A stretch of 64,000 bases of DNA from Lodderomyces elongisporus (taxonomy: Eukaryota; Ascomycota; Pichiomycetes; Serinales; Debaryomycetaceae). Made by a program: the position numbers and the translations under genes. The notes beneath the pieces were generated by a model. It searched no databases. It worked only from the letters and a program-made list of their open reading frames with translations, and was not told the origin of the DNA. Below are positions 56,477 through 58,948 of the stretch, piece by piece (the first letter of the stretch is position 1; the number at the start of each line of letters is the position of its first letter). The DNA lies in NCBI RefSeq assembly GCF_030384665.1, contig NC_083676.1, forward strand, positions 1,860,001 to 1,924,000, given 5' to 3'.

Positions 56477-58831
56477 ATGAATGATGGAATACTGAGGATT
56501 TCTGCTGCTCAAATCCAATCAGTAATACCACTCAATGTATTGGATGATTTGGCCCAAATTCAATCAGATATCGATAACGATATTCAAATATTATTGGAAT
56601 GGTTGCAACCAGTGATACCTGATGTGATGCTGCAAAGTCAGCATTGTCAAACAAGCTTAGGAGATTTAGGAGAGTTTGGAGAAACTCCAGAAATTCTGGA
56701 GAGCTTAGAAAATTTAGGAAATACAAGAAATTCTGGAGTTTCGGGAAATACTGCAATAATTAGAAGACAAACACGAAGTTTGGCATCGACAGCGGCAGCA
56801 CCGGTAACAAAAGTGTCAACATCAACAGCAAGGACGGCAACGGCAACGGCAAAGCAATATACTAAAGATGGTGTTTTAGAGACAAAGTTCATCTCTTCAA
56901 ACTATAAAGAACCTTCACATCGTGTGAAACAGGCAATTAGGAGTTGTCTTAAACTTGAAGAAGATCAGTATAAGTTTATGGATATTTACTTAAACACGGT
57001 GGATGCGGAATTGAGGTCTTTGCAAGTCCCTGCCTTTATGGCCGTTGACTTCAACGGCTTTAGCCATGCTTTAAAAGAAGGCCAAAATCGATCGTTTGCA
57101 GACTACATTCAGTTTATTAAACTTCTCCAGCGTCACTATGACAACCAACTTGATAATTTGATGTTACCCGCCTCTGTTCGCAGTATCTTTGATGACAAGT
57201 ACCGCATTATTCTTCAATTATATTTGTTGAGACAACAAGATTTCTTGCCATTGATAAAGCAGTTTTTTGTGACCTCATTTTTTGGCAAAAGCACTCTTTC
57301 GGCAAAGCCAACATCTTCATCGATGACGTTGAATATGATTGACGTCATTACAACTTTGGTGTCAGTCGGTCTCTGTGAAAAGTTGAATGAAATTATGGTA
57401 CAAATTTGTGTTGAAAAAGTCAAGACATACACCTTGCAATTATGCTGCAATGTTTGGGACAGACCTCTTCTAGATAACTTAAAGTCATTCATACAAGACG
57501 AAATCTACCCAGATTTCTCCATTATTGTGAGCTACACTACACCTAAGATGACTTTGACGGATGCAATGAATAACCACTATTTATACGAATTATCCAATGT
57601 TGCTCACACAAAACTAATATCACAACGTATCACCGAGATTTTCCAGCTAGTTCTTGCATACCCCAGTAGCCTACATGCATTGATTGAGTTGCATCTGGTT
57701 CTAAATCTGAAAGTTCAGCAAATTTACGAAGTCAATGCACATCAAGTTATGTTGACGAATCACGCCTCAAATTTTGAAGCTTTGCAAAGTCTGGAGCGAA
57801 GCAAACTTGTAGACACATTTATAAATGAATGTCAAAAGAATTTGCTTCATGCAGGCGTGAACACTATTGACATTATTATTGCTTATACCAAGACCGTCAA
57901 GTCTTTTTTGATGATTGACCCGAGAGGAGTGTTGCTTGATAAAGTGATACGACCTATTCGAGAGTATCTAAAGACAAGGCCGGATATATTCACCAAACTA
58001 GTCCATGGCTTGTTAGATACGTCGCCCCAGACTAATAGGTTGTGGGAATTGGCCTCTCAGTTGTATGATACAAAGTCTACCAAATCCAAAAAAAGAGGTG
58101 CTTACAAAGACTTTATTGATCCCAAGTGGACACCTGATCCTATCGATGCGTTGCCTGACTTTAAAAGAGAAAAAGTAGGCGACATAATTGAATCATTGCT
58201 CTCCATCTTTGAATCAAAAGATATTTTTATACAAGAGTTCACTACCTTATTTGCAAACCAGCTAATAAAACTGTCATCGTTTGATGCACGCAAAGTAGGA
58301 AACAAACTAGCACTTTTGAAAGAACGTTTCGGAAACCAAAGTTTCCCTACACTTGATGTAATGATTAAAGATTTTGAAACAAGCGAAGCATTAAATGCCA
58401 CACTAGGAACAAAACAGCTACAAATGGGAGTTCTTTCGCATTTATATTGGTCAAGTATCTTGGAAGGTATCAATCCTGAGTACAACCAATTCAAATTACC
58501 GCCTGATATGGACCTAATGTTTAAAAACTTTCAAGCCGAGCACGCGATTGAAAAGCAAGGAAGAACTTTGAAGCTTGTCCCCAGTTTGGGCACTGTCAAA
58601 CTACATATACATATGAAGAGCCAGACACGGGAGTTTGAGGTTAGTCCGGATAAAGCTGCGATAATCTCGTTATTCAGTGAAGAAAAAAATGAACTTTCAA
58701 TAGATCACATTGCTTCCACTTTGAATATGCCTCTGTATATGGCTACTGAAGGTTTATCATTTTGGGCTAAAGAGGGAGTATTGATAAATTTGACACCGAC
58801 TTTGTACATTGTAGATGAAGACGATGACTGA
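56477..58831 (+). CDS. APC2: Anaphase-promoting complex cullin subunit Apc2, C-terminally truncated
   Basis: The 784-residue protein has cullin-repeat-like helices in the N-terminal half and the cullin homology domain from about 520 (LVHGLLDTSPQTNRLWELA; FIQEFTTLFANQLIK; LGTKQLQMGVLSHLYWSSI), with winged-helix sequence near 700-775. Apc2 with Apc11 is the catalytic core of the APC/C, the ubiquitin ligase that triggers anaphase. The frame stops just after DEDDD, where orthologues continue with an acidic linker and a C-terminal WHB domain of about 60 residues. S. cerevisiae Apc2 has 853. The downstream DNA still carries a remnant of that part. Confidence 0.93.
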   Translation: MNDGILRISAAQIQSVIPLNVLDDLAQIQSDIDNDIQILLEWLQPVIPDVMLQSQHCQTSLGDLGEFGETPEILESLENLGNTRNSGVSGNTAIIRRQTRSLASTAAAPVTKVSTSTARTATATAKQYTKDGVLETKFISSNYKEPSHRVKQAIRSCLKLEEDQYKFMDIYLNTVDAELRSLQVPAFMAVDFNGFSHALKEGQNRSFADYIQFIKLLQRHYDNQLDNLMLPASVRSIFDDKYRIILQLYLLRQQDFLPLIKQFFVTSFFGKSTLSAKPTSSSMTLNMIDVITTLVSVGLCEKLNEIMVQICVEKVKTYTLQLCCNVWDRPLLDNLKSFIQDEIYPDFSIIVSYTTPKMTLTDAMNNHYLYELSNVAHTKLISQRITEIFQLVLAYPSSLHALIELHLVLNLKVQQIYEVNAHQVMLTNHASNFEALQSLERSKLVDTFINECQKNLLHAGVNTIDIIIAYTKTVKSFLMIDPRGVLLDKVIRPIREYLKTRPDIFTKLVHGLLDTSPQTNRLWELASQLYDTKSTKSKKRGAYKDFIDPKWTPDPIDALPDFKREKVGDIIESLLSIFESKDIFIQEFTTLFANQLIKLSSFDARKVGNKLALLKERFGNQSFPTLDVMIKDFETSEALNATLGTKQLQMGVLSHLYWSSILEGINPEYNQFKLPPDMDLMFKNFQAEHAIEKQGRTLKLVPSLGTVKLHIHMKSQTREFEVSPDKAAIISLFSEEKNELSIDHIASTLNMPLYMATEGLSFWAKEGVLINLTPTLYIVDEDDD

Positions 58832-58948
58832 GATTACGAAGATAATGAAGAAGCCAAGCATGATCGAAATGGCATAAGTGTTGATGATATCGATAACGAG
58901 CTTTGAATTTTGTTGACTAATATTTTGAGAGAAATCGAAAAGGTTCCT
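58832..58948 (+). pseudogene. Decayed C-terminal extension (WHB domain start) of APC2
   Basis: In frame after the TGA at 58829-58831, 24 codons read on (DYEDNEEAKHDRNG, then ISVDDIDNEL) to a second TGA at 58904-58906, followed by ILLTNILREIEKVP. After that the DNA turns into T-runs and a (TAT)n repeat. The text before and after the second TGA looks like an Apc2 acidic linker plus the first helix of the WHB domain. Confidence 0.65.

Follow-up and report, generated by a model that had tools for sequence, protein, structure and literature searches.

Apc2 of a Lodderomyces yeast ends after WHA and lacks the WHB domain, in a genome with no detected Ubc11-type E2

The APC2 gene in the window (the whole 64,000-nucleotide stretch of Lodderomyces elongisporus DNA analysed here) encodes an APC/C cullin subunit that keeps its cullin core through WHA and lacks the WHB domain; judged from the sequence, the loss of WHB is real. 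We assign a probability of roughly 0.6 to the reading that a WHB-free Apc2 is natural in this yeast, that its APC/C relies on Ubc4 and Ubc1, and that repeated loss of WHB was permitted by the absence of Ubc11. The order of events, the E2 use and the permissive role of Ubc11 absence are what we infer.

In the human APC/C, according to PMC5717348 and PMC8028313, the priming E2 UbcH10 (UBE2C) cannot work without WHB, whereas UbcH5, an E2 of the Ubc4 type, can do without it; PMC8028313 also has BubR1 of the human MCC bound by the Apc2 WHB. PMC11473103 presents an S. cerevisiae APC/C that employs Ubc4 and Ubc1 together with the Apc11 RING and whose WHB is flexible and not seen. Our search of the open-licence literature found no description of Apc2 WHB loss in yeasts.

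Results

The APC2 reading frame in the window DNA extends from the ATG at 56477 to the TGA at 58829-58831, exactly 784 codons. CTG was translated as Ser (table 12). The window lies in a 16.09 Mb genome of eight contigs, the one that was searched. The features at and beyond the end of the gene are as follows.

56477..58831, + strand: APC2, 784 aa under translation table 12, APC/C cullin subunit; C-terminal DEDDD right after the last WHA strand
58829..58831, + strand: first in-frame TGA, end of APC2, confirmed in the window DNA
58832..58903, + strand: 24 open codons, DYEDNEEAKHDRNGISVDDIDNEL, acidic (10 D/E in 24), likely once an inter-domain linker or a C-terminal tail
58904..58906, + strand: second in-frame TGA, confirmed in the window DNA
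58907..58948, + strand: ILLTNILREIEKVP, claimed as WHB helix 1; similarity no better than chance
58949..59010, + strand: T-runs and (TAT)n, non-coding, read in the window DNA
59044..61215, - strand: TAF12-like gene, convergent, Pfam TFIID_20kDa at 86.9 bits

The arrangement described in the initial annotation, with in-frame TGAs at 58829 and 58904, 24 open codons between them and then T-runs and (TAT)n, is thus present in the DNA in every part. The APC2 stop is separated from the stop of the convergent TAF12-like gene by only 212 bp, which is insufficient space for a complete WHB together with its linker. In the TAF12-like gene (59044-61215, -) a long poly-Q tract and PAPVSAPVSA-type repeats precede the histone-fold end. 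On its other side APC2 adjoins a Dcn1-like cullin-binding gene (54830-55771, -; PF03556 at 87.2 bits, plus UBA_4). Dcn1 works on cullin WHB domains, and the position of such a gene beside a WHB-less cullin gene is probably a coincidence.

The APC2 product matches Pfam TPR_ANAPC2 (PF25773) at 92.5 bits, against a cut-off of 27, and Pfam Cullin at 71.1 bits. A sequence search of the PDB returned human and S. cerevisiae Apc2 as top matches, with E-values for Apc2 chains of 1e-39 to 2e-22 compared with 5e-5 for the best other cullin (Cullin-4B), and it aligned query residues 439-782 to residues 369-718 of human Apc2, whose WHB lies past residue 718. The AlphaFold model of the product has a mean pLDDT of 70.3, with 183 of the 784 residues below 50, and its last strands are 769-771 and 776-779; when the model was used for a fold search, the first 18 of the best 50 matches were APC/C chains (TM-score by query 0.38-0.54). 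By these sequence and fold comparisons the window gene is Apc2, closest to Apc2 rather than to other cullins, and its cullin core through WHA is present. A WHB is usual but not required for Apc2 orthology and none was found here, so we file the gene as a WHB-less variant of Apc2.

Pfam reported no ANAPC2 (PF08672, the WHB) in the APC2 product. With a profile built from 17 WHB domains, all 17 yeast WHBs scored 57-103 bits when withheld from training, singly or by group, and the best score among 3450 overlapping six-frame pieces of the window was 7.2 bits. The profile is tuned to yeasts: P0028, a relative annotated with PF08672, reaches only 8.4 bits, an indication that a very divergent WHB could escape it. 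A genome search with the 75-aa WHB of C. parapsilosis gave no match at E<=10, while the adjacent 78-aa WHA, serving as positive control, found the APC2 locus at 3.2e-17. Over its length C. parapsilosis Apc2 aligns to the genome only as far as its residue 714. Searching the genome for the PF08672 family gave no match either, but since the control genomes were likewise empty this result carries no weight by itself. A hidden exon or a relocated WHB was rejected on the six-frame scan of the window and the genome searches with their WHA control, and the initial annotation's view of an otherwise intact Apc2 from which WHB is missing holds for window and genome alike.

A protein search for Apc2 yielded 28 proteins, and a second search with the Apc2 alignment yielded 27, none of them new. 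On the WHB profile 17 of the 28 relatives score 82-112 bits, these being the same 17 from which the profile was built; the other 11 (P0001, P0002, P0012, P0016, P0018, P0021-P0024, P0027 and P0028) score at most 8.4 bits or give no score. P0001 (ENA) is 97% identical to the window protein, has 784 aa and ends in identical residues, a comparison that rests on one of the nine member sequences of its cluster. P0002 (C. jiufengensis), P0012 (C. oxycetoniae) and P0016 (C. verbasci), as well as P0018, P0021, P0022 and P0023, end after WHA and score below 0 bits or not at all; these ends are those of protein records, in which gene-model errors or introns are possible. WHB is kept in C. parapsilosis, C. 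theae, C. margitis, C. maltosa and C. viswanathii. P0024, a 454-aa protein of Ogataea polymorpha, a species outside the CTG-Ser1 clade, also stops after WHA; it looks like a partial gene model, with an independent WHB loss as another possibility.

In an Apc2 tree of 26 rows (the window protein and 25 of the 28 matches, with P0024, P0027 and P0028 left out), a clade with support of 100/99 unites the window protein with P0001 and C. oxycetoniae. C. jiufengensis joins the WHB-bearing C. parapsilosis complex at 93/92, just under the starred support level. On this tree the absence of WHB takes five changes, at least four of them forced by starred branches, a count that includes P0018, P0021, P0022 and P0023. 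In a published species tree (PMC9046093), too, C. oxycetoniae lies outside the group made up of the C. parapsilosis complex and C. jiufengensis. If loss is assumed to be one-way, the named species need at least two losses among the close relatives, plus that of C. verbasci. The comparison with related Candida proposed in the initial annotation thus bears it out in that the window protein has lost a WHB that C. parapsilosis keeps, but the loss is not unique, since the protein records of C. oxycetoniae, of C. jiufengensis and of C. verbasci likewise stop after WHA; the lack of WHB is apparently common to several relatives and broader than had been supposed.

At least 13 E2-like places were found in the genome with PF00179, and a query with S. 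cerevisiae Ubc11 led to these 13 again; its top match by E-value has 40% identity, and the highest identity is 44%. Our own reading of these sequences names them as putative Ubc4, Rad6, Ubc13, Ubc7, Ubc9, Ubc1, Cdc34, Ubc12, Ubc8, Pex4, Ubc6, UBE2W-like and Mms2. None of the 13 detected E2s is of the Ubc11/UBE2C type: on a Ubc11-family profile their maximum is 153.9 bits, against 275-316 bits for seven held-out members. From the sequences searched, Ubc11/UBE2C is apparently absent from the genome. No Candida or recognised CTG-Ser1 yeast is among the species named in the best 120 of 1565 Ubc11 matches, many of which 120 carry no species name; Babjeviella, Komagataella and Pachysolen are present among them. 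A tree drawn from 53 of these 120 sequences does not tell which of the unnamed ones might stem from CTG-Ser1 yeasts. An Apc11-type RING gene is present (PF12861, 123.9 bits in the genome search), as are Ubc4-like and Ubc1-like genes, so named by sequence reading. A change in Apc11, Ubc4 or Ubc11 had been raised as a possible companion of the WHB loss; of these the Ubc11 type was not found, whereas the Apc11-type RING and Ubc4-like genes are in place.

The genome holds one Mad3/Bub1-type gene (L021, G000:C5:1141669-1142040 (-)) with two KEN motifs in frame, and the checkpoint partner of WHB is accordingly not missing. With its two KEN motifs and an apparent kinase-domain start in one frame, L021 resembles a joint MADBUB gene.

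Discussion

We propose that Ubc11 would have been lost first, leaving WHB free to go, and that WHB would then have disappeared in an ancestor shared with C. oxycetoniae. The acidic linker would have persisted as a tail, later shortened by the TGA at 58829, and the APC/C would use E2s that need the Apc11 RING alone, with Ubc4 priming and Ubc1 elongating. Since the core through WHA appears intact, the Apc2-Apc11 catalytic core can presumably form. By analogy with UbcH5, which can do without WHB according to the papers cited above, and with the use of Ubc4 and Ubc1 in S. cerevisiae, a WHB-less APC/C should still ubiquitinate with both enzymes. Without Ubc11, one motive for keeping WHB is gone, so that WHB could be lost more than once. 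A tentative extension of this proposal is that an early loss of Ubc11 in CTG-Ser1 yeasts made WHB expendable and was followed by at least three or four independent WHB losses.

WHB nevertheless persists in C. parapsilosis, C. margitis, C. theae, C. maltosa and C. viswanathii, and with no named Candida in the best 120 Ubc11 matches the lack of Ubc11 can be at most permissive; Ubc11 absence, if it holds in C. parapsilosis and the others, is not sufficient for WHB loss. The initial annotation's suggestion that the loss bears on how the APC/C works with its E2 is strengthened by the finding of no Ubc11/UBE2C among the 13 E2s, but the link is correlative. Against an account in terms of E2s only, WHB has other work, for example the binding of BubR1 in the human MCC (PMC8028313). 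That WHB was lost independently of Ubc11, through altered MCC control or through drift in a fast-evolving clade, is consistent with this second role and with the retention of WHB in other yeasts with no Ubc11 among the matches listed (best 120 of 1565), yet the genome does carry a Mad3/Bub1-type gene, two KEN motifs included, and the WHB-requiring E2 was not found in it; we regard such an independent loss as a doubtful, though serious, alternative.

Of the 24 codons that follow the first stop, 10 encode D or E. A comparison with 45,597 intergenic windows of 24 codons, overlapping and taken from both strands, of which 11,562 are open, gave this stretch as the sole open one with at least 10 D/E; counts of 8 or 9 turn up at eight further places, one of which falls within the neighbouring cullin-binding gene. 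Past their own stops, the other 25 ORFs of at least 150 aa have at most three D/E within 24 codons, and several relatives carry an acidic linker or tail at the corresponding position of Apc2. As this D/E count is unmatched among open intergenic windows, the 24 codons are probably former coding sequence, though GA-rich DNA could contribute, and the earlier description of an acidic-linker-like stretch after the stop stands above chance.

The claim that ILLTNILREIEKVP is the first helix of WHB fared otherwise. On the WHB profile the frame after the stop scores -1.0 bits, a value exceeded by 670 of the 3450 six-frame pieces. When all registers are allowed, 13% of the six-frame 14-mers in a sample of 18,276 score at least as high as the 14-mer ILLTNILREIEKVP, as do 45% of its own shuffles; for a 12-mer, chosen post hoc, the shares are 5% of six-frame peptides and 24% of shuffles, and for a 25-mer 6% and 33%. 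Profile and shuffle tests (-1.0 bits; 45% at least equal) thus give no support to a helix-1 remnant in ILLTNILREIEKVP, whose likeness to WHB is no better than chance. A recent decay confined to the window species, with WHB helix 1 still legible past the second stop, was the version first put forward; it would agree with an acidic linker running across the first stop and with IDNELxILLTNI in one register, where the score is reached by just 0.11% of six-frame 12-mers, the register having been picked post hoc. Against it stand the profile and all-register results and the absence of WHB from the sister in the tree, C. oxycetoniae: as this species (57% identical and closest of the other species compared) ends after WHA, a neutral relic would hardly still be legible. 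We consider that version improbable, and a recent loss restricted to the window species unlikely.

Far less probable still is a WHB that is present but reached via stop-codon readthrough, an intron or a frameshift. The frame is open for 24 codons past the TGA at 58829, and TGA is the leakiest stop codon, but a mere 212 bp remain before the TAF12-like gene, neither the six-frame scan of the window nor the single-protein genome search, whose control worked, revealed a WHB, and readthrough would append 24 acidic residues and no domain. A sequencing or assembly error at the TGA is hardly credible, because P0001, a different sequence, likewise stops at residue 784 and because a wrong stop would leave WHB-coding DNA in place; on both error and readthrough the initial annotation had argued in the same direction, and the shared end of P0001 and the lack of WHB-coding DNA in the window agree with it.

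If the tentative extension is true, with an early loss of Ubc11 in CTG-Ser1 yeasts followed by several independent WHB losses, nature would have provided in these yeasts an experiment on an essential cell-cycle ligase that works without its cullin WHB, and the E2-docking role of WHB would be separable from its checkpoint role. A lineage without WHB, and apparently without the E2 that requires it, would show that such an architecture is dispensable in nature, and makes it possible to ask which role, E2 or checkpoint, retains WHB in other yeasts. The loss described here affects a well-studied cullin domain, is natural and probably repeated, and has a cause that is plausible and testable.

Compared with S. 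cerevisiae and human Apc2, the window protein possesses the same TPR_ANAPC2 and cullin regions and the same WHA end, with sequence and fold matches to both, but it has no WHB and ends in a short acidic tail. With the Apc2 proteins of C. jiufengensis, C. oxycetoniae and C. verbasci (P0002, P0012 and P0016) it shares an end after WHA, known for those three from protein records and for the window read on DNA; P0002 retains a long acidic tail. An engineered counterpart, in PMC8028313, is the human APC/C with the APC2 WHB deleted, which likewise has an Apc2 core without WHB, whereas the loss described here is natural, possibly old by the tree, and found in a genome without a detected UBE2C-type E2.
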